Shown piece by piece: positions 17,489 to 56,340 of a DNA stretch of 56,443 bases. Origin of the DNA: Clostridiales bacterium (GTDB lineage Bacteria > Bacillota > Clostridia > Christensenellales > Pumilibacteraceae); NCBI GenBank assembly GCA_022508505.1, contig JAFLVC010000012.1, positions 1 to 56,443 on the forward strand, given 5' to 3'. Position 1 is the stretch's first letter; the number at the start of each line of letters is the position of its first letter. Position numbers and translations under genes: made by a program. A model generated the notes under the pieces. The model made no database searches, had not been told where the DNA came from, and saw only the letters and a list, made by a program, of their open reading frames with translations.

Positions 17489-17809
17489 GAATTTACCGCA
17501 AATCAAGCAACAAAAAATCCCGCCTGTGCCGCAGAATTAACCGTATTCAAACCCGCCTTATGGCAGGTGGGTCGGCTGACGGCGTTTTCTGTCTTCCCCT
17601 GCTTACCGAAGTAAAATTACTGAGGCCCGACATATTCCGCGCGTACGCGCCATCCCTTTTATGAATTGAGGTTATAAATAAGGCGTCATCTCGAACACCG
17701 CAGGATGTACCTTTATTATATACGGAACGGCCGAAAATAACAATACCGAACGAAAAAATTTTGTTCAACTTATTTTCGCAAAACCTATTGACATTTATTT
17801 TGTTTTATG
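17489..17809. other. Gene-free stretch between convergent genes
   Basis: The 321 bp have no convincing gene. A 73-codon minus-strand reading at 17547-17768 has no recognisable family and no good SD. The right end carries a perfect TTGACA (17788-17793) and, 17 nt on, TATGAC (17811-17816), a plus-strand promoter-like pair pointing into the 3' end of the DUF4241/TPR gene. No convincing terminator hairpin was seen. Confidence 0.5.
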
Positions 17810-37421: not shown

Positions 37422-37450
37422 TTGACAACCGCGCTGATATTTGATATTAT
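37422..37450 (+). promoter_or_regulatory. Promoter of the tRNA cluster
   Basis: TTGACA (37422-37427), 17 nt, TATTAT (37445-37450). The predicted start near 37457 is 14 nt before tRNA-Ala. Confidence 0.75.
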
Positions 37451-37470: not shown

Positions 37471-37546
37471 GGGGGTATAGCTCAGTTGGTAGAGCGCCTG
37501 CTTTGCAAGCAGGATGTCAGCGGTTCGAGTCCGCTTATCTCCACCA
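37471..37546 (+). tRNA. tRNA-Ala (TGC)
   Basis: A 76-nt cloverleaf with encoded CCA. Acceptor GGGGGTA pairs with TATCTCC (two G-T pairs). The anticodon arm is CCTGC-TTTGCAA-GCAGG with anticodon TGC. The T arm contains GGTTCGAGTCC. It is preceded by a consensus promoter. Confidence 0.95.
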
Positions 37547-37575: not shown

Positions 37576-37640
37576 AATGAGCACCACCCTGCTACGAAGC
37601 AACCGCGAAGCGGTTATAAGGCGGGGGTCGTGGTTCGACA
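37576..37640 (+). pseudogene. Degenerate tRNA-Ile-derived copy with 24-nt anticodon insertion
   Basis: From GAGCACCACCCTG through GGGGTCGTGGTTCGA this is recognisably tRNA-Ile, but the acceptor and D regions are decayed and the 3' part is replaced by the hairpin GGCGC-GTAA-GCGCC. Between anticodon positions 34 and 35 it has a 24-nt insertion (37592-37615) identical to that in the copy at 37780-37879. Confidence 0.7.
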
Positions 37641-37674
37641 AGGCGCGTAAGCGCCGCCAATCAATTCAATATAT

Positions 37675-37751
37675 AGGAATGTAGCTCAGCAGGTTAGAGC
37701 ACCACCCTGATAAGGTGGGGGTCGGTGGTTCGAGTCCACTCATTCCTACCA
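37675..37751 (+). tRNA. tRNA-Ile (GAT)
   Basis: A 77-nt cloverleaf with encoded CCA. Acceptor AGGAATG pairs with CATTCCT; D stem GCTC/GAGC; anticodon arm CCACC-CTGATAA-GGTGG with anticodon GAT; T arm GGTGG/CCACT with one wobble pair. It is followed at once by a terminator hairpin. Confidence 0.95.
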
Positions 37752-37773
37752 AACGCCCCGCAAGGGGCGTTTT
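37752..37773 (+). terminator. Terminator after tRNA-Ile
   Basis: AACGCCCC-GCAA-GGGGCGTT, a perfect 8-bp stem, then TT and a T-rich tail. The same hairpin is repeated after the next tRNA copy. Confidence 0.85.
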
Positions 37774-37779
37774 GATTTT

Positions 37780-37879
37780 GGGAATGTAGCTCGGCAGGTT
37801 AGGCACCACCCTGCTACGAAGCAACCGCGAAGCGGTTATAAGGTGGGGGTCGGTGGTTCGAGTCCACTCATTCCTACCA
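37780..37879 (+). pseudogene. tRNA-Ile-like gene interrupted in the anticodon by 24 nt
   Basis: A near-identical tandem duplicate of tRNA-Ile(GAT) with its own CCA, but with a 24-nt insertion at 37814-37837, between anticodon G34 and A35, and one deleted base in the D arm (GAGC becomes GGC). Position 1 is G, so the first acceptor pair is G-T. The insert ends in the perfect hairpin AACCGC-GAA-GCGGTT. Without removal of the insert it could not decode isoleucine. It may be a pseudogene, a tRNA with a small intron-like insert, or a tRNA-derived RNA. Confidence 0.75.
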
Positions 37880-37901
37880 AACGCCCCGCAAGGGGCGTTT
37901 T
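37880..37901 (+). terminator. Terminator after the interrupted tRNA-Ile copy
   Basis: Identical hairpin to 37752-37773, which shows that the duplicated unit was tRNA plus terminator. Confidence 0.85.
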
Positions 37902-37939
37902 GATTTTGGGTAAAACCAAATGTATATGCTCGAACACTA

Positions 37940-44856: not shown

Positions 44857-47800
44857 TTAGAAGTTGTTGGGATCGAACCCGTCGTTACGAGGGGGCATTC
44901 CCTGCTGATAGGGGTTCTGCTGGCCCTGTTGCTGATAGGGATTCTGACCTTGCTGCTGATACGGGTTCTGCGGAGCCTGCTGATACGGGTTAGGCGCCTG
45001 CTGCTGGTACGGGTTCTGCGGAGCCTGTTGATACGGGTTAGGCGCCTGCTGATACGGGTTCTGCGGAGGCACACCCTGTTGAGGCGGCACGCCCGGTCTG
45101 TACGCAGGATTCTGCTGCGGCATTCCCTGCTGAGGAGGCATGTTGCCCGCATACGGGTTGGTGGGCTGTACCGGCGGAGGCGGAGACGCGGGCTGTACCG
45201 GCGGAGGCGGCGTAGGCTGCGCTACCGGAGGCGGAGTCTGCATGGTCGGTGCAGCGGCCGGCTGTTCGATACCGGCGCTCTCACCTGTGCCTGCGCCAAG
45301 CTGCAAGGTGTTGGGTGCAGGAGCTGCTGCGCCGCTGCCGAGCATCAAGCCCGGATCGTTGAACGTAGGATTGGTAGGCGGCAGATAGCCGAACGAGTTG
45401 AACATTCCCGCACCTGCTCCGGCGCTGAGCTGCATCATTTCTTCGTTGAGCTCTGCTTCGGAGTTGAGGAGCATCTCAATCTCGCGGCGCATCTTTCTAC
45501 GCTTGTGGAGTATGACGAGAAGCACGATGAGGAAGATGATGAACAGCAGTATTCCGCCGAAGATCAAGCCCCACATCAGAGGATTGGATTCGATGTTGCC
45601 GAGGAATGACGTGAACCAGCTCGGCTCGGGCATATCCGTACAAGAGACGGTTAGCTCGTATGTGTAGAGTCTGTTGGAAGCGTCGGACAGCGTGATCGTC
45701 ACCTGCGTCTCGCCTCTGTACTTGAACTTGAGGTCTATCTGGTTGTCGCCTTCTTTCAAGAATACTTCCGCATACTGCGACGACGCGACCTTGACCGGCG
45801 AAACGAACCGCATGACGTCATCTTCGTCGATGTCTATGAACCACGTCTCGGGCTTAATCGAAATGAGGTTGCCTTCTCCGAGCATGTTCTTTGTGAACTC
45901 GAACGACTTCTTAATGAGCTCGGGTTTGTGGTTTTCGGTTACGAGAATATTGAAGTTGTTGACGCGAGTGATTCCGCCGACGTCAAACGTTACCGTGATC
46001 TTGTCGGAGATGCCGCCGCGGCGCAACGCCTTTACGCGCCACATCTCGTCGTCACTCAAAGCAACAGCATTCGTAGAGGACGCTCTCGCAACTGCCGTAG
46101 GCGCGATTACCTCGAGGTTGCCCGCCGATTCGACGCTGACAATCTTGTAGCCGGCGGACCTAAGCTCTTCCTCGGTGTCGAGCAGCATTTCGGGACTGAT
46201 CTTGCGCGAAACGCCTTCCGCAATCTTGATGGGCTCTGTCAAGTCCTTGTCCTCTACAGGGCAAGCGACGGTGACTATGAGCTCGACGATGACACGCTGG
46301 TCGTCGGATATCCTCGCGGTCGAGCCGTCGATAAAGCCGCCGTCACGACATACGAGGTTGATGCGCTGCGTGCCGTACACGCCGGGCAGAACGGTTATTG
46401 CAAACGTCTGATGCGTGAATTCATCCGCCCAAGTGATGCTGCAAACCGCCGTCGCTTCTTCTATGTAGGTCTCGCCCGTTCCGGAGTCGACTATCGTCTT
46501 TGTCACGCCGGGGCCGTAAAGAATAGGCCTGTCAGCCGGATTTGCGGCATCGACGTCGAGCACGTCAAAGCTGTCGATATAGACGTAGGTGACGGACTTC
46601 TTGATGAGCGCGGTCGGGTCGTAGTCGGTCGCTACGTCGATAGCGTCGTTGGGGTTCTCGTCCGTTACATAGTAGACGATGTTGCTCTTTTCGGGCGGAA
46701 CGAATGCCGTCGTGGATTCGGAGTCGAGCGGCAATCCCATGACCGTTATCGTGCGCACATCGGCGGACTTTTGCTTAGGCGCCAAGTTGCCGACGGTCAG
46801 GTAGATCGTGAGCATGCTCGTTCTCGCTTCAGATGTGTCTTCTAACATCATGTGGCAAACGGCAATCTCGCCGCGCGCTACCGACGTGCACCTGAACGTT
46901 ATGCTCTTTAATGTGGGGAAGTTGTAGTCGTTGTTGCCGTTTGTGGCGTAGTACTCAAACAGCTCCGTTCTGTTGTCGGCAGCGTAGAGCTTGCCGGGTT
47001 CGTCGGACGGCCTGTCGGTCAAGTACGGCGCGTCGGTGCTGACGAGTTTGTACTTGTCGAAGTCAAAGTCAGCGTCGGCAACAATGGTGCCGAGCCCTAC
47101 CGTCAACGCGTCGCCCTTAGCGAGAGACAGATACATCTCGTAGCCGTACTGCGCGTCGTAAGAGAGCGTGAAGCGGTTGGTGACGATGTCGTCGACCTCT
47201 TTGAACTTGGGATTGCTGTTCAGAACAGTTACCATAATGGTCGTCTTGGAGCAATCGTTGAGGGTCACGGCCTTGTCGTCGTACAGCTTTTTGGTGTACA
47301 TATCGGCGACATAAATGTCGACGGGAATAACCATCCTCGCAATACTGCCGTCTTTGACCTTGCGGTTGATCCTGATAGTCAACGTGCCTTGCTCAACATT
47401 GCTAGACACCGTCAAAACGGGATCGTTTGGTTTGGTGTTGTCCTCGAGAATGTTCTCGGTGTTGGGTATACCGGACGCGCCGCTTCCCAGCTTTGCCGCC
47501 ACGAACACAAGTTTCTCGTTGCCTGTCCTGTTCTTCTGCAAATCGTAATCGCGGAACAGTCCGAGCGTCTCGTCCTTGGGATTGCACAACATCCAGGTGA
47601 GCGAATCACCCGCATAGCCGCTGAATTCAAGGAAGTTCTCGGAGCGCAGCTCTTCCCCATTCTTTAACGGATAGCCGAAGTTGAGACCGTCGCTCTTTAT
47701 AGCTTCGGGCGCTGAGTTCTCGACGGTGACGTTGGTCTGAACGATGCCCTTGGTGGGCATGACGTTCGCATTGCCGTCCTTGAAGCGCTTGCCGACCTCG

Positions 47801-50800
47801 ATGTACAGCGAGATGGAGGAAAGCGTGCCGTTGGGATTGATGTTGGCGGCATTGGGGACGAACGTAAGCGTCTTGCCGTCGTCAGACACGGTCAGCTCGA
47901 AGAAGTTTCTCACATAATTGTAGACTTCGCCGTTGAGATTGTCCGAAGGTCCGTCCTCGGTAACCGTAATGAGCTTGGTCGCCTCTTTTACTGCGTCGGA
48001 ATTCTCACCTTCGAACTGCGTGAATCTTACAGGCTCCATAACGCCGTTCTCATTCTTCATGATCATGGCGTACACGGTGACGTAATACCTTGCGGAAGGA
48101 GCGCTCGCGTCTTGGTCGTAGATATGCGTTGCGTTCTTATTTGCAGATACGAGCTCTATCACCTGCTTGGTGGGGGTCTGAGAGTACTTGAGATAGCTCT
48201 GAACGGTTATCGCCGCAGGCTTGGAAATGGACGATATGACCTCCATTTCGGACGGCGCAATGTAAACCCTGAGCGTGATTTCTTCGGACTGCACGCCGTG
48301 AGCGTCGGCAACCTTGAACACGACCTCTGTGTACTCACCCTTTACGGGAATGTAGTCGGCAGCCTCGATGCGGATCTTGTTGCCGCGGTCGAGCCCGCTC
48401 GTCGTCGTGACGTTGAGCGGCGAAATAGTCAGATCTTGCAGACCGGTGGAATTGGTCACCCTGTAAGTGAGACCGTCATAGATGGCCGGCGCGATGAATC
48501 CGTCCTTATCGCCGTTGTCGTCGTCGTCCATGAACTGCTCGAACTCGTACTCAAACGGAGCGCCGCCGTACTTGAGATTTACTTCGTATATCGTCTTGGT
48601 GTCGCCGCCTACCTGCACTTCCTTCTTGGTCATGTTTGCAGGGAGCTTATCCTTGACGTACGGAGCGGACGATTCGACGGTGATATACACCTTGAGATAT
48701 GTCAAGTGGTCGGTACCTTCGCTGTCCACAATGGCGATGATAAGCTCGGCATTGGTAACAACGCCCCTCGCTGTAACGGTGACGGTGACGGGGTTGGAAC
48801 CGAGACCCTCGTTCTGAATCTTGTTGGAGAAAGAGAGGTTGATCAAGCTTCTCAGGTTTTCGTCGGCCATCTTGGTGCCGCTGTCCAAAATTCTGAGCGT
48901 GCTCGGAGCGTCGTCGCCCGCGATTATGAGAGCGCCGAGCTCGTGGTTGCGTTCTTTTGCCACATCCTCGTCATAGCCGCCGATGAAGGGCTCAAACTCT
49001 TTGCGAAGTTCTGCGGCGGACTTTTGAGGATAGTAGTCGCGAATGCCGTTGAAATGCGAGGGGGACGTGAACTTACCCTTTACGTCCGCGTCGAAGTTGG
49101 TGACGTCGGCGGAGTTGATGGTAAAGCTGTCGCCCGTGCGCATCGTTATGTTGAGCGACGCGCCCTTGTAGGTGTCATCGTTTTCGGTAGGCGCCTCGTT
49201 TGAGTACGCAAACGTGATGGTAACGGAATCCTGCGTGGGCGTAGGCAATGCCGAATCCTTAAATGTCAGCGTTATCTTGTACTTGGTCTTGAACGCACTC
49301 GTCGCCGTAAAGACGAGCGTCGTCTTGGACTCGGCGTCGACCTCGACGGTTATCGGCAAGTCTGTCTTGTTCACGGCATTGTTTTCGATATCCGTCGCTG
49401 TAAACACGACGTTTCCGCCCGTAACGGGCATGACCAACACGTCGCGGATAAGCGCCGAATTCTCGGACGCCTTTTTGCTGTTCGAATCGTGAGGCAGAGT
49501 GTCGGGTATTTCGGTGACGTATCTGCCGTCGATCATGACGATGTCGTTATCGCTTATGAGCGTCGAAACGTCGAGCGTGGACGGAACGCCCTTGGTAAGC
49601 TTGGTCTCGTTGACCGGCTTTGCCAAAATCTCGCTGTTGGAAATGTGCACCTTGACAACTACAAGCACCCACTTGCCTTCCGTAAAGCCGGAGCCGTTGC
49701 AGCTGTCGTAAGCGAGCACTCTGAACGGATAGTAAATTCCGTGCGTATCCTTCATGAGATGGTTCGCTTTGAGGTACTCTTCTTCGCTCTGTCCCGAAGG
49801 AATGTTGAGCGCGGTCTTGGCGTTGGGTATTATTTGAAGCGTTCGCGTCGAGCCCTTGATCGTCGCTACCGAGAAGAATGTCTCGTAGCCGGGGTTAGGC
49901 TCGTATTCGGCCATGAACTCGGGAGTAATATCACTCGACTCGTTCTTGCCGAAGTACGCCGTAAGACTACCCGTGGAAACGGAGTTGTCCAAGAGGTACG
50001 TACGTTCTTGCGCGGTGAGACCGCCGTCGCCGCTGAGCTTGCCGCTCGTAGCGGTGGGCATGTAGAACATCATTTCGTCGGTGGCGTCGGCGTCGCTGAA
50101 CTGCAACGAGTACTTGTACGCCGCGCCCACAGGGAACGTAGCATTGCCCGAGCGAGCAAAGCCGATATATGCGCCGGGAGCGCTGCCCTCGGCATTCGCC
50201 ATCGTCAAGCCCCTGTCGCCGCCTGCCCCCGGACCGGTATCAACGTCGATGTAGTTGTCGCTGTTGTAGTTGAAGTTCTGGGGCGTGGAGTTCTGAAGCT
50301 GAATGTCCACAAACGCCGTTTCGACCTTGGCGCCGTCGCCGCTCGTCTTGACCTCTACAGTGAGGCGGAGCGAGCCCGTATACCGCGGGCTGTTGCCTTT
50401 GCGCGTGACTCTGAAACCGTACCTGTCCTCTAGATAAGGGCTGACAGCCGTGCTCGAGTTGAAGCCGGAGTGCGTGGAGAAGTTCTTGGAGTAAGTGCCG
50501 TCGCCGGAAGAAGTGAGCACACCGCGCTGATAGTTGATATATCTGCTGTTGAGCTTGCTTTGGTGGGCGGTGTATTCAATCGTAATGTAGTCGTTGTTGT
50601 TGAGCGTGCCGTCCGAACCGCGCCATACGTGACCGTCGTCGTCGGTGAGCGTTACGTTTTGAAGAATTGCCGCCCTGATAGCGACGTCGTTGGCGGTGTT
50701 GCCCGTCGCCCACGATACGTAAGGAGGGGTGCCGGCGTTAGCCGTGAACGACGCATCTGTGTAACCAGAAAGTCCCGCGGTGCCGACGTTTGCGAACAAT

Positions 50801-53800
50801 ACGTGCGTCTCGTTCTCGGACGCCGTGCCCTTCGTTATGTCGAACGTTTTGGGCATTGCTATATAGCTCATCGGGATTATCGCCGCCGCCTCTGCGGTGA
50901 GCTCGACCGGCTCGTAGTAGAACGCGCTGGCCGCCGTATCCTGATAGCGCTTACCTACCTCTTTGCTCTCCTCGTTGTCGCCGCCCGTGATGTTGACGAA
51001 ATAGCGGTATCTGAACCTCGAGGTGAAGCTTGACGTCCTGAGCGCTTCCTGACTGCTCGGAAGCTCATTGGTTGTGAACATGTCGGCGTCGAGATATTCG
51101 AGCTGGATCTTGCGATCGCCGGACTGCGTAGCGGAGTCAGCCCAAATGGTGGACTCTGTCTGACCGTCGGTACGGTAGTACTCGTGCATCGCCGTTATAC
51201 CGGGCGACAGATACTGATAGTAGAAATTGACGACCGTATCGCCGGAAACGGTGTTCTTAGACGACGTCCATTCCTTGGTGTCCCTATCGTAGCCGTAGAC
51301 GTCCTTGTTGAGGTGGTCGTCTTTGTATCTTATAGCTATCTGCGTGTCAAGCGCGCCCGTAGTGGTGGCCGCTTTGTCCTTAATCTTGATAGCCCAGTAC
51401 TTGAGCTGATCGAGATTGGTGAGTTGGCTCGGATCTTTGATCTGCGTGAACGTGTAGCCCGTTTCGACAGAGCCCGATCTATCAAAGAACAGCACCTCGA
51501 CATCGAGGAACTTTTCGGAAATGCCCGTACTGTCGGCATACGTCTGCGTGTACATAATCGCCGTGCCGGTGCCGAATGCGTCCTTGGTGATCATGTTGTT
51601 GGACTTCATGACGAGCTTGCCGGGATCGTTCACGTTCTTGTCTTCGCCCGTATCGAGAAGTGCGGTCTGCTCCGAGTCGGCGTCGGCAAACAGAAGCATC
51701 TTGTTTGCGGCAGACGCCTGTATGACCGTCGAGTCGTACAGAGCTTTGCTGTTGATTATGTAGCGGTCCGCAGCTTTCTGTGAAATGGTGTCATACTGCA
51801 TGTACCAGGTGTACTTGTTGCCATTGTCGACCTCGGTGAGCGAACCTTTTTCGAACGTCGGGTTGCTGTTGATAACCTCAACGCCTATGCGCAGCGTAGC
51901 GTAGCCGGGTTGAGCTCTCCAGCCGTCGACGACGCTGAACTCTACATATATAGGTATATTGAACAGCTGCGTGGACGACTTTGCTTGGACCAAAAGCACC
52001 TGCTGACCGATGTAGTTGCCCGTACCGCTCGTAATCGACGCGCCGACATAATCGGAGAGGTGTATGCTGCCGTTTGCGACCGGCGTATACGTGCCGTCGC
52101 CGTTGAGCCTGAGGGTGTCGAAATAATTGCCGTTGCTGTCCATGGCGACGACTCTGACGAGGTCGCCGTTAAAGAATACGGAGTCATCGTCAATGTCGTA
52201 CGCAAGACCGTCGGCAGAGCCCTCGCTCGTGCTCCAAGCGGTGAACTGAACGGAGTTTATTCCGCCCGCAACCTTGCCCGCGGTGAGAGACACGCGGGTG
52301 TCGGGATTCCTCAAAATCGGCGCGGCGTTTTCGACCGTTACCGAAATGGCAAACTCGATTGTCGAAATGCCGTCCGTTATCCACACTGTGAGCAGCGGGT
52401 TGTTCGCTGTAGTACGAGTCTCGCCGTGGAGCTTGATGCACGAAATCGCATAGTGGTCGTCGCCTACGTAGAAGCCATCCTCTACCGTAGCGGTTACATA
52501 CGTGCTGTAATCGGACGCCGCTAATTCAAATCTGTCCTTATTGGTGAAGCTGAGTGCGCCGCGGCTGACCTTGGCGGGCTTTGCGGCGACGCTCGGCGTT
52601 GCGGTGCTCTTGACGTCATACTTGGGAAGTATTTTGTTCCTTGCGACATCGGCAAAGCCTTCGTCGAGCGGGTTGGTGTTATAGATATAGTTGCCGTTGC
52701 TCTGCTTTTGGTTGAGACCGCTTACGGAGTCGAAGTCGTACGCCAAGTCGTAAGGCGTGATGATGAGCTCCTGCTTGGCAATCAGCTTGTAGTTAATCGA
52801 AGCTACGCGAGCACCCGCCCTCGGAACGTAAGTGCCGTACTTCGTGGTGTTGAAAGGATACGAAGTGCGCGCCTGCCCTTCCAATTGCATTTCCGCCTCG
52901 CGGCGAACTGCGGGAGCGCGGTTGTTAACCTTGACGTAAATGCGGACATAACCCGTACCGTCTATTCCGTCGATTTTTTCGGGAACGGTGCCGTGGGAGT
53001 CCTTGACCTTTACGTCAAACTCATAATACTCGTTGTTGGTCGAGGCATTTGCGGTGATTCTCAAGCCCCAGAAGCCTCTTATGTTCTCGCGCGCAATGCC
53101 CGTCGCTTGCCCCGCTTCCTCGTCTGTTATGGGAGTTATGCCGAATGACGCGTGCTTATTGGGATCGACGTTGCTGAACACCGATGCGTGCGCGAACAGC
53201 CTTACGAGCGAAACGCTGAAGAACTCGCCCGCTCCGCAAAGGTTTACTATGCTCTCAATACTGTCGCCTGCGAGCAACACTATTTCGTTAAACTCGCTCG
53301 TCCTCGAAGCGGTTGAACCGATCGAGAATATGTCGTTATCTGTCACAAACGGCAACGCTTGCTCTGCGTCGGCGCTTGTGATTGTCCGTATATCCGAGAC
53401 GCCTATGCCGTGCATATTACCGCTGGTGTCGGTATAGCTTAGCGGCGTGAGGATTACGCTCTGAGCCGTGCCCGGCTTTCCGTCGACGTCTTCCGTGCCT
53501 GTCGTAACGTCGTCAAAGCCGAGCGTGAAGCTTGAAGTGACCGACGGCTCGCGCGGCGCCGACGACGTAACCTGTATTGCAATCGGGAACCAAATTCCGT
53601 CGTCGGACGTGTCGCCCGGATCGAGCACGCGTACCAATACGTAGAAGTCTCCGCTCCTTCCTGCGTCTGCGTACATGTACTGAGACGCCGCACGCGGAGT
53701 AAAGCGTATCGTCGATGTTCCGACGTAGCTGTAAGTCAACCACGCCTTGCCCGCATCGGCGCTACCCGTCTGCGCTATTACGCGGTGAATTCTTTCGAAT

Positions 53801-56340
53801 TGATCATTGCTCGCATACGACGTAGGAGTCGTGTATAGGTCGGCACGCCAGGCTCTTGTCGCGCCCTCGCCCGTCGAATACGTGGTGGCAGCAGAACCGC
53901 CTCTGTTGTAGTTTGTTCCCGCTTTGAGATCTATGAGCGTGTTCTCGCGTGTGACCGAAACGTACTCATTGGTGGGAACCTTGAGCGAGCCCGCCTTCGT
54001 GTCGAACGTGGGAATCGTGCCGTCGGGATCGTAGACGAATTTGGTGAGATCCAAGTCAACCGAGTCTCCGCCCGCTTTGAGCGTGATGAGCGGCTCGGTC
54101 TGACCTTGGTTGTTGCTCGTAGCCGATGCGTACAGCGGGCGCGTGTTGGCTATCTTGAACACCAGCGTTACCGCGGTGTTGTTTGCAAACGCGAGCTTGC
54201 CGTTTTGCTCGCAGCTCGCCGCCGTGATGGTGAGCGCGACGTATATCGACTTGGACGGCCTCAGCGCCGTCGGCACTATCGTTATAGACTCGTACAGACC
54301 TGTCGAGCCGTAGAGCGTGCTGTTTGCGTTATACAGAATGCTGTAATAAGGCGTCTCGGTCGCGGCGCCCGCAGCAACTGATCGTATGCCGACTATGTCG
54401 TTCATATTGGCAACGGTGTCGTTATCGAAATAGACGTCCGTCGCCTTGATCGTAAAGCCGTCCTTTGCTGCGACGGGGCTCGCCGCGTTAGCCACCCTGT
54501 TAGGTGTAAGCGGCTGCGGTATAAACACCGTAGGTTTATTCGAGCCGAGCTTGTTGTATATATGCCCGCCGCCGATGTAGTCGAGCGCGTCGTCGCCGGC
54601 CGCCGATTTGTCCGAATTACCTACACGGTAGTTGTACGCTCCGCCCGTGCCGGAATATGAATACTCTATGTAAGAACCCTTGTCTGTTACAGTCTTTCCG
54701 CCCGTATTGGGATTTGACGCGGCGCGCATTCCAATCCCGTTGTCGGTAACTGTAACCAGGAAGGTGACGTCACCGTATCCACGCGTCGTATTTGTGCCGA
54801 ACGCGTCGCGCACCTTTGTAGTAAGCTTAAGTGTTCCGTCTGCCTGCGTCGATCCGTCCACACCCTTTCGCGGGTACTTCTTGACGCCGGTTATCGTAAT
54901 CGTATTTTGATCTATATTCCAATCGAGATAAGTACTCGCCGAGGCGCCGTTCTCCAGCCTCAAGTTGGTAGTGCTCTTAGACACCGTATCGAGGTTGGAA
55001 GTCGTGCCGTTCGTGAAATAAACGTTTGTTATTTTGCCGCCAGAGTAGTTGGCATAGTCGGTATCCTGTGCTATCGCGGAAGCAGCGATAGGTACGCTTT
55101 TGCCTGTCGTACCGCGCGCACCGAGAGAGAACGAAACGCCCGCCTTTGCCGTAGGCGGTTGGTTGACCTGTATAGCGGTGATCTTGGCATAGCCGTTGCC
55201 GCTGTGTCCGGTCTCGTTGCCTGACGAAGGCGCAGGCATCGATGCGTTGCCCGCTATGAGGTTCTTGGTTACGGTGATGCCGTTTACCGTCGTCGTGATG
55301 ACGCCGCCGTTCCAGCCCGAGCCGCCGCTGCCGCCCATGCCGTAAGGACCCGAACCAGAGCCGCCCCAATAGCCGGAGCCGCCACCGCCGCCGCCGCCCG
55401 CAGAACTGCCGGAAGGAGTCGTCGTAAGCGCCGCGCCGCCCGCAAGCGTCGTGGGGTTGCCGTTGTTGCCGACAACAGTGCCGTAGCCGGCGCCTCCGTA
55501 AAGGCGTCCGCCTGCCTTGCCGCTACCTTTTGCGGCTCCCGCAGCAGACTGCGTTGCGCCGCCTGCCGCGTTGCCCGATGATTTATGGGATACAGATGCG
55601 CCCTGCGAAAGGTTGTACTGCGACGCGCCGCCCGTGGTGCCGCCGCCCCAGCCGCCGTCGGTGCCCGCGTTGTGCTGGCTGCCGCTCGAGTATGCCGAAC
55701 CGCCGCCGCCGCCGCCTGCGCCCGCAATGAGTATCTCATTGTTTAAGTATGTAGTGGATTTGAAAAATCCCGATAGTCCGCCGCCGCCTGCGCCGCCCGA
55801 CGAGTTGCCGCTGCCCCAAGGGTGCGCGCCGCCGCCGCCTGCGCCGAAGCCGCCCGCCGCGCCGTGCTTTACTGTCGAGCCGTACGAATATCCCTGCTGA
55901 CCGACAATTACGTAGACCGTAGCGCTGTCCGCCGTTATGGTGTACGCGCCGACGGCATAACCGCCTTTGCCGCCCCAGCCGCCTTTGTACGCGTTGTTAG
56001 CTGCGTTGCCGCCCTGTGCGCCCCAAACCTCGAACTTATACGTTCCCTTGGGGAGCTTTATTGTATAGAGACCCCCGCAGTACTGCATGTTGATGACGTC
56101 GTTGTTGATAATCGCGCCCGAAGCCGTATAGGTGTACGTGCCCGCAGACGTCAACGTCTTGGTCGCAGACCTGCTGACGTCGCCGCCTTCCACTCCGCTC
56201 GTCGTGCCCGTTGTGCTCGACGTTCCGAAGCAAAGTCCGCACGTCAATCCCAGCGCTATCGCAATGATACCGCTGACAATCAAGATCAAAAGTCTTTTGG
56301 ACTTCGATATGACTGTTGAATTTTCGGCTCTTTTTTTCAT
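44857..56340 (-). CDS. Giant surface protein: glycine-rich head, cadherin-like repeats, C-terminal TM and prion-like tail
   Basis: A 3827-residue protein. An N-terminal hydrophobic segment (about 17-40) acts as signal peptide or anchor. Residues about 80-390 are a Gly-rich domain (KLPKGTYKFEVWGAQGG, VYVIVGQQGYSYG, many GGGGG runs) like the Gly_rich domain of ALK-type receptors. From about 395 to 3580 there are many beta-sandwich modules marked by links such as VNNRAP, VENAAP, VINSNP, VESSAP, VENSAP and VLNSNP and by Asp-rich loops, in the manner of cadherin-like or PKD-like repeats. A TM segment lies at about 3587-3611, followed by a basic stop-transfer HKRRKMRR and a 216-residue cytoplasmic tail rich in Pro, Gln and Asn. 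No LPXTG motif is present. GGAAGG precedes the ATG. Function unknown; adhesion or cell-surface sensing is a guess. Confidence 0.85.
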   Translation of the reverse strand: MKKRAENSTVISKSKRLLILIVSGIIAIALGLTCGLCFGTSSTTGTTSGVEGGDVSRSATKTLTSAGTYTYTASGAIINNDVINMQYCGGLYTIKLPKGTYKFEVWGAQGGNAANNAYKGGWGGKGGYAVGAYTITADSATVYVIVGQQGYSYGSTVKHGAAGGFGAGGGGAHPWGSGNSSGGAGGGGLSGFFKSTTYLNNEILIAGAGGGGGGSAYSSGSQHNAGTDGGWGGGTTGGASQYNLSQGASVSHKSSGNAAGGATQSAAGAAKGSGKAGGRLYGGAGYGTVVGNNGNPTTLAGGAALTTTPSGSSAGGGGGGGSGYWGGSGSGPYGMGGSGGSGWNGGVITTTVNGITVTKNLIAGNASMPAPSSGNETGHSGNGYAKITAIQVNQPPTAKAGVSFSLGARGTTGKSVPIAASAIAQDTDYANYSGGKITNVYFTNGTTSNLDTVSKSTTNLRLENGASASTYLDWNIDQNTITITGVKKYPRKGVDGSTQADGTLKLTTKVRDAFGTNTTRGYGDVTFLVTVTDNGIGMRAASNPNTGGKTVTDKGSYIEYSYSGTGGAYNYRVGNSDKSAAGDDALDYIGGGHIYNKLGSNKPTVFIPQPLTPNRVANAASPVAAKDGFTIKATDVYFDNDTVANMNDIVGIRSVAAGAATETPYYSILYNANSTLYGSTGLYESITIVPTALRPSKSIYVALTITAASCEQNGKLAFANNTAVTLVFKIANTRPLYASATSNNQGQTEPLITLKAGGDSVDLDLTKFVYDPDGTIPTFDTKAGSLKVPTNEYVSVTRENTLIDLKAGTNYNRGGSAATTYSTGEGATRAWRADLYTTPTSYASNDQFERIHRVIAQTGSADAGKAWLTYSYVGTSTIRFTPRAASQYMYADAGRSGDFYVLVRVLDPGDTSDDGIWFPIAIQVTSSAPREPSVTSSFTLGFDDVTTGTEDVDGKPGTAQSVILTPLSYTDTSGNMHGIGVSDIRTITSADAEQALPFVTDNDIFSIGSTASRTSEFNEIVLLAGDSIESIVNLCGAGEFFSVSLVRLFAHASVFSNVDPNKHASFGITPITDEEAGQATGIARENIRGFWGLRITANASTNNEYYEFDVKVKDSHGTVPEKIDGIDGTGYVRIYVKVNNRAPAVRREAEMQLEGQARTSYPFNTTKYGTYVPRAGARVASINYKLIAKQELIITPYDLAYDFDSVSGLNQKQSNGNYIYNTNPLDEGFADVARNKILPKYDVKSTATPSVAAKPAKVSRGALSFTNKDRFELAASDYSTYVTATVEDGFYVGDDHYAISCIKLHGETRTTANNPLLTVWITDGISTIEFAISVTVENAAPILRNPDTRVSLTAGKVAGGINSVQFTAWSTSEGSADGLAYDIDDDSVFFNGDLVRVVAMDSNGNYFDTLRLNGDGTYTPVANGSIHLSDYVGASITSGTGNYIGQQVLLVQAKSSTQLFNIPIYVEFSVVDGWRAQPGYATLRIGVEVINSNPTFEKGSLTEVDNGNKYTWYMQYDTISQKAADRYIINSKALYDSTVIQASAANKMLLFADADSEQTALLDTGEDKNVNDPGKLVMKSNNMITKDAFGTGTAIMYTQTYADSTGISEKFLDVEVLFFDRSGSVETGYTFTQIKDPSQLTNLDQLKYWAIKIKDKAATTTGALDTQIAIRYKDDHLNKDVYGYDRDTKEWTSSKNTVSGDTVVNFYYQYLSPGITAMHEYYRTDGQTESTIWADSATQSGDRKIQLEYLDADMFTTNELPSSQEALRTSSFTSRFRYRYFVNITGGDNEESKEVGKRYQDTAASAFYYEPVELTAEAAAIIPMSYIAMPKTFDITKGTASENETHVLFANVGTAGLSGYTDASFTANAGTPPYVSWATGNTANDVAIRAAILQNVTLTDDDGHVWRGSDGTLNNNDYITIEYTAHQSKLNSRYINYQRGVLTSSGDGTYSKNFSTHSGFNSSTAVSPYLEDRYGFRVTRKGNSPRYTGSLRLTVEVKTSGDGAKVETAFVDIQLQNSTPQNFNYNSDNYIDVDTGPGAGGDRGLTMANAEGSAPGAYIGFARSGNATFPVGAAYKYSLQFSDADATDEMMFYMPTATSGKLSGDGGLTAQERTYLLDNSVSTGSLTAYFGKNESSDITPEFMAEYEPNPGYETFFSVATIKGSTRTLQIIPNAKTALNIPSGQSEEEYLKANHLMKDTHGIYYPFRVLAYDSCNGSGFTEGKWVLVVVKVHISNSEILAKPVNETKLTKGVPSTLDVSTLISDNDIVMIDGRYVTEIPDTLPHDSNSKKASENSALIRDVLVMPVTGGNVVFTATDIENNAVNKTDLPITVEVDAESKTTLVFTATSAFKTKYKITLTFKDSALPTPTQDSVTITFAYSNEAPTENDDTYKGASLNITMRTGDSFTINSADVTNFDADVKGKFTSPSHFNGIRDYYPQKSAAELRKEFEPFIGGYDEDVAKERNHELGALIIAGDDAPSTLRILDSGTKMADENLRSLINLSFSNKIQNEGLGSNPVTVTVTARGVVTNAELIIAIVDSEGTDHLTYLKVYITVESSAPYVKDKLPANMTKKEVQVGGDTKTIYEVNLKYGGAPFEYEFEQFMDDDDNGDKDGFIAPAIYDGLTYRVTNSTGLQDLTISPLNVTTTSGLDRGNKIRIEAADYIPVKGEYTEVVFKVADAHGVQSEEITLRVYIAPSEMEVISSISKPAAITVQSYLKYSQTPTKQVIELVSANKNATHIYDQDASAPSARYYVTVYAMIMKNENGVMEPVRFTQFEGENSDAVKEATKLITVTEDGPSDNLNGEVYNYVRNFFELTVSDDGKTLTFVPNAANINPNGTLSSISLYIEVGKRFKDGNANVMPTKGIVQTNVTVENSAPEAIKSDGLNFGYPLKNGEELRSENFLEFSGYAGDSLTWMLCNPKDETLGLFRDYDLQKNRTGNEKLVFVAAKLGSGASGIPNTENILEDNTKPNDPVLTVSSNVEQGTLTIRINRKVKDGSIARMVIPVDIYVADMYTKKLYDDKAVTLNDCSKTTIMVTVLNSNPKFKEVDDIVTNRFTLSYDAQYGYEMYLSLAKGDALTVGLGTIVADADFDFDKYKLVSTDAPYLTDRPSDEPGKLYAADNRTELFEYYATNGNNDYNFPTLKSITFRCTSVARGEIAVCHMMLEDTSEARTSMLTIYLTVGNLAPKQKSADVRTITVMGLPLDSESTTAFVPPEKSNIVYYVTDENPNDAIDVATDYDPTALIKKSVTYVYIDSFDVLDVDAANPADRPILYGPGVTKTIVDSGTGETYIEEATAVCSITWADEFTHQTFAITVLPGVYGTQRINLVCRDGGFIDGSTARISDDQRVIVELIVTVACPVEDKDLTEPIKIAEGVSRKISPEMLLDTEEELRSAGYKIVSVESAGNLEVIAPTAVARASSTNAVALSDDEMWRVKALRRGGISDKITVTFDVGGITRVNNFNILVTENHKPELIKKSFEFTKNMLGEGNLISIKPETWFIDIDEDDVMRFVSPVKVASSQYAEVFLKEGDNQIDLKFKYRGETQVTITLSDASNRLYTYELTVSCTDMPEPSWFTSFLGNIESNPLMWGLIFGGILLFIIFLIVLLVILHKRRKMRREIEMLLNSEAELNEEMMQLSAGAGAGMFNSFGYLPPTNPTFNDPGLMLGSGAAAPAPNTLQLGAGTGESAGIEQPAAAPTMQTPPPVAQPTPPPPVQPASPPPPVQPTNPYAGNMPPQQGMPQQNPAYRPGVPPQQGVPPQNPYQQAPNPYQQAPQNPYQQQAPNPYQQAPQNPYQQQGQNPYQQQGQQNPYQQGMPPRNDGFDPNNF
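44899..45060 (-). repeat. Tandem coding repeats for Asn-Pro-Tyr-Gln-Gln units
   Basis: Seven NPYQQ units separated by AP, APQ, QAP, QGQ and similar links in the tail of the giant protein. The DNA is also repetitive (GGGTTCTGCGG and GGGTTAGGCGCC blocks), with a longer period of about 54 bp visible at 44980-45060. Such repeats can change copy number. Confidence 0.85.

Follow-up and report, generated by a model that had tools for sequence, protein, structure and literature searches.

Background

Small dispersed repeats (SDRs) of cyanobacteria, reportedly described by Elhai et al., are very small mobile repeated elements. The typical SDR is a unit of about 20-27 nt that stands at several unrelated loci, with many dispersed copies per genome. 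The 24-nt insert that we describe here, from broken tRNA-Ile copies of a Clostridiales bacterium, resembles SDRs in its length of about 20-25 nt, in being non-coding, in its apparently recurrent insertion and in showing no visible target duplication; it differs in that copies are few, that the short form lies mostly in broken tRNA copies, that entry is before AT and that the host belongs to another bacterial group. The 24-26-nt form of the element does stand at unrelated loci, namely in copies of tRNA-Ile, tRNA-Thr(CGT) and tRNA-Met whose intact genes carry the empty site, but we did not find many dispersed copies: our genome has three, and the dispersed ones, for example in genome G037, are longer forms. 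SDRs are mentioned in passages of PMC2884548 and PMC3116915.

Several other systems invite comparison. The GTAG/CGTC REP elements and the REPINs, which passages of PMC3733652 and PMC3116915 associate with RAYT transposases, are likewise short and palindrome-like, and 8 of the 14 variants of our element start with CTAC, so that the opposite strand ends in GTAG. However, the tag is missing in the other 6 variants, the 30 Y1 loci that we searched hold no strong copy of the element and 9 of 18 carrier genomes have no Y1 match; thus we found neither a general GTAG/CGTC end nor a Y1 gene that tracks the element. The repetitive and double hairpin elements of fungal and sponge mitochondria, as outlined in part of PMC2800124, share with the variant studied here (variant A) two consecutive small hairpins and the absence of a target duplication, whereas our element is bacterial, lies in tRNA copies and in its commonest variant lacks two stable hairpins, so that the double hairpin is not conserved across copies. 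The Rickettsia palindromic elements are small palindromic inserts that also occur inside genes, although those described within genes, in the passages of PMC2694212 and PMC3733652 that concern them, lie in protein genes, and the likeness is one of description only. Finally, group I introns of bacterial tRNA genes occupy the anticodon, according to part of PMC4090602, as our element does in tRNA-Ile and tRNA-Met; in contrast, the insert has 24 nt, no ribozyme match (no group I catalytic core reaches the gathering score in the DNA analysed) and relatives at other sites and on the antisense strand. The same part of that paper gives the bulge-helix-bulge splice motif as the mark of the archaeal-type tRNA intron, a type that also has its own endonuclease. 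Among the titles and abstract openings covered, we found no account of such an insert in tRNA copies, and we do not claim its absence from print.

Results

A 24-nt insert in two broken tRNA-Ile copies

The window, by which we mean the whole stretch of 56,443 nt analysed, contains a tRNA-Ala/tRNA-Ile locus (Table 1) in which an earlier note had reported two tRNA-Ile-derived copies whose G34 and A35 are separated by an identical stretch of 24 nt. We confirm this: the two inserts are identical at 24/24 positions, and 100 dinucleotide shuffles of the window gave no match to the insert.

Table 1. Features of the tRNA-Ala/tRNA-Ile locus (window positions; ^ marks the insertion junction)
Feature	Position	Strand	Basis
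Promoter-like TTGACA-17-TATTAT upstream of tRNA-Ala	37422..37450	+	Consensus scan, 11/12; predicted only
tRNA-Ala(TGC), intact	37471..37546	+	ARAGORN; Rfam 72.6 bits
Broken tRNA-Ile copy 1, within the Ala-Ile spacer	37576..37640	+	Sequence; repeat match to copy 2
24-nt insert in copy 1, variant A, CTG^AT, G34/A35	37592..37615	+	Sequence
Small hairpin GGCGC-GTAA-GCGCC 3' of copy 1	37642..37655	+	By eye; G017 has a similar one
tRNA-Ile(GAT), intact, empty site CTGAT	37675..37751	+	ARAGORN; Rfam 71.3 bits
Terminator-like hairpin 3' of tRNA-Ile	37751..37772	+	Scan
Broken tRNA-Ile copy 2, CCA kept, D arm damaged	37780..37879	+	Rfam 40.9 bits
24-nt insert in copy 2, variant A, CTG^AT, G34/A35	37814..37837	+	Sequence
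Terminator-like hairpin, same sequence as that after tRNA-Ile	37879..37900	+	Repeat comparison, scan

Copy 1 retains its anticodon arm, its T arm has become GTCG-TGGTT-CGAC (37627-37639) and its 3' acceptor strand is missing, a layout resembled in G013, G010, G006 and G016. Positions 37581-37630 of copy 1 match 37803-37852 of copy 2 at 98%, and 37838-37910 in the region of copy 2 repeat 37710-37782 of the tRNA-Ile region at 100%. Copy 2 had been described as having an intact CCA and terminator; both are confirmed, the terminator being identical to that of tRNA-Ile, but the copy is damaged beyond its insert: the D arm carries a 2-nt deletion (TTAGGCACC replacing TTAGAGCACC) and one non-standard stem pair in the Rfam alignment, and the tRNA score falls to 40.9 bits from the 71.3 bits of the intact gene. 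Run on the window, ARAGORN called neither broken copy, and the consensus scan found no promoter-like match on the + strand between the terminator-like hairpin of tRNA-Ile and copy 2. Elsewhere the window holds a 6S RNA (17513-17709, - strand, Rfam 50.7 bits) and, at 44857-56340 (-), a 3827-aa open frame. The product of this frame begins hydrophobically, has a single membrane-like segment close to the end and a tail rich in Pro/Gln, and by eye resembles a giant surface protein.

Across our 1.89-Mb genome (G000), a search that allowed 3 mismatches found nothing beyond the two window inserts; a related variant inside a tRNA-Thr(CGT) copy on contig C12 brings the total to three copies.

Distribution among relatives

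We built a family model from 14 variants and searched it in 74 genomes of the host family, with E<1e-3 taken as strong and with stricter filters because more than 40 genomes were searched. By hand count, there are 34 strong matches in 18 of the 74 genomes and 7 of 18 genera, many of them hit by construction since they are the model's own training sequences. Judged by eye, 32 of the 34 sit in broken copies of tRNA-Ile, tRNA-Thr(CGT), tRNA-Thr(GGT) or initiator tRNA-Met; in this assignment BLAST with the flanks only gave 'none' on both sides for several loci (L066, L115, L167), and two matches on contig C48 of G030, with no intact gene on their stretch, were given to Thr(GGT) by likeness to G052. 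The remaining two, both in G044, lie in another repeat outside tRNA copies. Part of the weaker matches was inspected, and the sample comprises one genome per species.

Among 151 genomes, G014 is the one further species with the exact 24-mer, and G018 has a near-exact, truncated form. BLAST with copy 2 against 20 genomes of the genus yielded a second Ile variant, CTACGAAGCACGAGCGAAGCGAGT, in G013 (twice), G010 and G006, and with one change in G016. Remnants at the tRNA-Ile locus are a shortened insert in G017 and the 3' part in G011; the remaining genomes of the genus have broken copies or arrays without an insert there, or none, the insert being absent from this locus in G002, G008, G009, G012 and G015. 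In the copies of the Ala-Ile spacer the normal T arm and the 3' acceptor strand are gone, and what remains is the 5' side of the tRNA with the anticodon arm; those downstream of tRNA-Ile (G000, G014) retain the 3' end and CCA.

Other tRNAs are also occupied. Broken tRNA-Thr(CGT) copies hold the element antisense to the tRNA in G000, G001, G010 and G017, and initiator tRNA-Met copies hold it in G046, G065, G062, G029, G034 and G037; by eye, G046 has four tandem Met copies, spaced at 113-114 nt, downstream of one promoter-like stretch. It is found as well in tRNA-Ile copies of genus g2 (G037, G020, G049) and, in genus g12, in copies of tRNA-Thr(CGT) and tRNA-Thr(GGT). For tRNA-Met the evidence is the insert sequence and not the number of matches, because a gapped Met pattern gave 12 matches, 8 with the element and 4 with unrelated sequence (G005, G026, G057, G050), and a backward control pattern also gave 12. 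Near-pattern matches in G115, G072 and on contig C42 of G001 were dismissed as chance.

Beside the short form of 24-26 nt there are longer forms of about 41-46 nt with the same CACGAGC...GCGAGT ending (end sequence of the element, CACGAGCGNAGCGAGT). These occur in copies of Ile, Thr and Arg tRNAs in g8, of Thr in g2 (G020), of Arg in g5 and of Ala(CGC) in g12 (G043), the Arg copies being Arg(CCT), and also outside tRNAs in genera g2 and g18; we inspected 4 of the 9 weak matches of G037, and each of these is a dispersed longer form away from tRNAs. Within our genus, 0 of 12 strong matches fall outside tRNA-derived sequence and the 4 weak matches in 20 genomes are about what chance would give, so no dispersed source is visible there now. 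Most tRNA-located copies have an intact gene of the same tRNA on the same fetched stretch, and the exceptions seen (G029, G030 C48, G049, G069) lie at contig ends.

Order-wide, the commonest variant (up to 3 mismatches) was found in 8 of 395 genomes, all 8 from the host family, to which 33 of the 395 belong by hand count, and it had no match outside that family. The earlier suggestion of a tRNA-associated repeat family, with relatives of the insert to be sought in tRNA-Ile and in other tRNAs of related genomes, is therefore borne out on both counts. Gene conversion within this genome, a process offered there as another explanation, cannot be the full story, because other species have the insert and the genome's own Thr(CGT) copy carries a different variant.

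A phage source was rejected: viral contigs gave no exact match to our insert, nor to a single degenerate pattern that covers the commonest variants, and by BLAST the locus matched 813 phage records, none over more than 80% of the query. Among the phage matches listed (5 of 813), 4 are annotated as tRNA-Ile and tRNA-Ala and 1 is unannotated. A resident Y1/RAYT gene as mobiliser is not supported either, since the presence of Y1 does not track the element: PF01797 matches half of the carriers (9/18) and 22 of the 56 non-carriers, the carriers with no match being G000, G010, G001, G013, G006, G065, G062, G046 and G020, and at 30 Y1 loci the element model gave just two weak matches (18.4 and 11.4 bits).

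The junctions share a short target

Reading the empty site from intact neighbouring genes, we distinguish ten tRNA junctions on both strands, and AT follows the junction in 10/10. The junction lies at 34/35 in Ile (CTG^AT) and in Met (CTC^AT); at 39/40 antisense, 30/31 sense and antisense in the acceptor in Thr(CGT), with CTG^AT on both strands and GTG^AT in G020; antisense in the acceptor (CTG^AT) and in the 5' part (GCC^AT, G071) in Thr(GGT); in the T loop, sense (TCG^AT), and in the 5' part, antisense (GTT^AT, G023), in Arg(CCT); and antisense in the 5' part in Ala(CGC) (GCT^AT). CTG is the commonest triplet before AT, and at 7 of the 10 junctions most copies seen have G or C there. A rule that G or C always precedes AT was dropped, the 5'-part junctions of Arg(CCT) and Ala(CGC) being T^AT. 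Dispersed copies are less strict, a few showing AC after the insert, and no target duplication is visible at the junctions.

In our genome, CTGAT is present in 5 of the 41 distinct tRNAs called by ARAGORN, namely Ile, Thr(CGT), Thr(TGT), Arg(CCG) and Ser(CGA). Among these, only Ile and Thr(CGT) are known to have copies with an insert, and no insert is known from copies of the tRNAs that have CTCAT or TCGAT alone.

Conservation of the insert relative to its hosts

Identity at polA fourfold sites is 45% for G000-G014, 50% for G013-G006 and 57% for G013-G016, and the inserts of the same pairs are identical at 24/24, 24/24 and 23/24 positions. In the polA tree, which is one gene tree, G000 groups with G002 and G017, and a grouping of G000 with G014 and G018, the holders of variant A, is rejected (p-AU 3.6e-7). 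Variant A thus needs transfer, parallel insertion or loss elsewhere. Between successive copies of ten arrays, 11 of 444 insert sites have changed against 167 of 1168 flank sites (p 6e-14), the flank count running too high wherever a first copy has a left flank that is not part of the repeat; the Thr array of G020 is the reverse, with 2/43 changes in the insert and 0/79 in the flanks. The identity of the inserts and the low rate of change in the arrays indicate that the insert is young, re-supplied or constrained, and selection on a tRNA-derived RNA or a DNA site is possible. The claim that the insert is preserved while the surrounding tRNA decays, from which selection on the insert had been proposed as one possibility, is thus upheld by its fewer changes and by its identity across diverged hosts, but not in full, for the anticodon arm of copy 1 has been kept as well.

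Folding

The fold first noticed in the window, of two hairpins with one of them very stable, belongs to variant A (as DNA, -7.4 kcal/mol, z -3.2) and not to the family: for the commonest relative it fails by standard rules (z 0.15), and two stable hairpins as a conserved family feature were dropped. Folded as RNA with the anticodon arm, variant A has z -2.3, the commonest relative z -2.8 with another fold, a Thr copy z -1.1 and a Met copy z -1.9. In 13 of 14 rows the stem of the commonest variant, ACGAGC/GCGAGT, includes two G.A positions, and double changes are seen in 2 of 8 pairs. Tandem G.A can be stable.

Five tRNA-Thr(CGT) copies (L103, L107, L121, L126, L127) contain a second insert, between the variable loop and the T arm, that forms two hairpins. 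Its sequence differs in each of the five species, 96.7% of cells are paired and 6 of 12 pairs have changed on both sides, i.e. in a compensatory manner. Shuffles reached the covariation score in 0/500 cases, the number of both-side pairs in 21/500 and the number of pair types in 280/500, the test being based on five hand-picked rows, with the partial G014, G016 and G007 omitted and the structure read from the same rows. This second insert is the best hint of structural constraint in the broken copies.

Other repeats linked to tRNA genes

A second element of about 200 nt, with core ACGGTTCGCTAGGCGCTTGCGC, is present in 15 of 20 genomes of the genus, our own having no match. At 18 of 20 loci fetched from those listed (two of the 20 overlap) it stands about 100-160 nt 3' of an intact tRNA gene on the same strand, its neighbours being Glu, Thr, Met, Ile, Tyr, Leu or Pro genes (L257, L259, L260, L269, L270 and others). 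The tRNA 3' end is repeated after the element at 16-17/17 positions in one Thr, one Ile, the Leu and one Pro case, and more weakly elsewhere; the element is tandem in G013, G006, G016, G017 and G009. The Ala-Ile spacers of G001, G002, G003, G009, G012 and G017 (L037, L038, L039, L044, L048, L053) contain up to 3 units of about 75-80 nt made of the 5' half of tRNA-Ile, which are near-identical within G002 and within G009 and differ in their 3' part between most species. Of the 42 tRNA genes that ARAGORN calls in our genome, 8 are accompanied, at a distance of up to 500 nt, by an incomplete copy of the tRNA concerned, in some cases of no more than 18-24 nt. Broken 5' copies at Arg(ACG) (L247) and Arg(CCG) (L092) have a D loop shortened from GGATAGA to GTCA, like the Ile copies, and two degraded copies lie 3' of tRNA-Thr(GGT) (L071, C1:194907-195182), the first with a hairpin GTGGCCC-ATGCA-GGGCCAC in place of the D arm.

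Discussion

The insert recurs with fixed junctions, on both strands and in several tRNAs, and it has dispersed longer relatives. From these observations we consider it probable, though by a modest measure, that the insert represents a mobile element, very small, non-coding and non-autonomous, that survives in spare tRNA copies. The main ground is that a short target common to sense and antisense strands and to varied positions in the tRNA is a property of DNA. Indeed, given the antisense Thr inserts of G000, G010, G001 and G017, the tRNA would be merely a place, and the T^AT junctions leave the odds as they were since they are further independent sites. The occurrence of variant A in G000 together with G014 and G018, a grouping that polA rejects, also speaks for mobility. 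We envisage that an enzyme would insert the element into DNA before AT, mostly at CTG^AT, on either strand and with no visible target duplication; genes such as those of tRNA-Ile and tRNA-Thr(CGT) have the pentamer CTGAT in the anticodon arm. Spare copies would arise by tandem or partial duplication, probably before insertion; survivors would be confined to them because insertion into a sole gene would presumably be lethal. Spare copies with an insert would lose tRNA function and then be copied along with it. Against mobility, near-zero change across strongly diverged hosts suits selection more than a relic, the Ile site common to g1, g2 and g8 could have been passed down vertically from an early ancestor, no mobiliser was found in our searches, no close strains that differ in presence of the insert were seen, our genus shows no dispersed source now and two G044 matches lie outside tRNA copies.

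A doubtful but serious alternative is that the broken copies are functional and kept by purifying selection. They would then yield tRNA-derived RNAs that act as decoys, serve as processing signals or regulate the adjoining tRNA, or else the insert would be a DNA site to which a protein binds. This alternative would account for the 24/24 identity between G000 and G014 despite their divergence in polA and for the low change in arrays, although the left flanks of first copies inflate the contrast; for the broken copies in the Ala-Ile spacer of many genomes of the genus; for the four Met copies of G046 behind one promoter-like stretch; and for the compensatory changes in the second Thr insert, which palindrome-directed repair could also yield. 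However, insert lengths and loops vary, five genomes of the genus lack the insert at the Ile locus, and copy 2 follows a terminator-like hairpin with no promoter-like match between. The opposite orientation in Thr copies weakens the functional alternative further, because the RNA made would differ. Many broken copies have the D loop, T loop and 3' end disabled but the anticodon arm and 5' part preserved, and we would put forward, tentatively and as unlikely, that in this family they make up a permanent set of RNAs derived from tRNA, or of DNA sites, next to particular tRNA genes, marked by a mobile 24-nt insert that selection later held nearly fixed, for example as a decoy, processing or dosage device for the adjoining tRNA.

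That the copies are simple pseudogenes, with a single chance insertion whose identity tandem duplication and local gene conversion have maintained, agrees with the tandem copies, their common terminator and the likeness of array members, but we judge it improbable, as the element in other tRNAs, other genera and both strands contradicts it. Least credible apart from an assembly error is a tRNA intron removed from the transcript. The position 34/35 had been called unusual for one, mistakenly, as bacterial group I introns occur in the anticodon region according to part of PMC4090602; yet the insert has only 24 nt, its host copy is damaged elsewhere, no Rfam intron family reaches the gathering score in the window, and relatives elsewhere in the tRNA (acceptor stem, T loop, 5' part), some of them antisense, speak against it, so that we give this reading very little weight. 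Assembly artefact is scarcely conceivable, for although these are draft genomes of many contigs, some ending at tRNA-Ile, separate assemblies of many species give the same junctions.

If selection holds the insert, sets of tRNA-derived RNAs would have been overlooked; ARAGORN, for example, skips both window copies. If the insert is mobile, as we favour, the element would be, to our knowledge, among the smallest recurrent bacterial insertion units, with a short target and with tRNA genes as its visible niche; because the adjoining intact genes show the empty site, both its mobility and the enzyme become testable.
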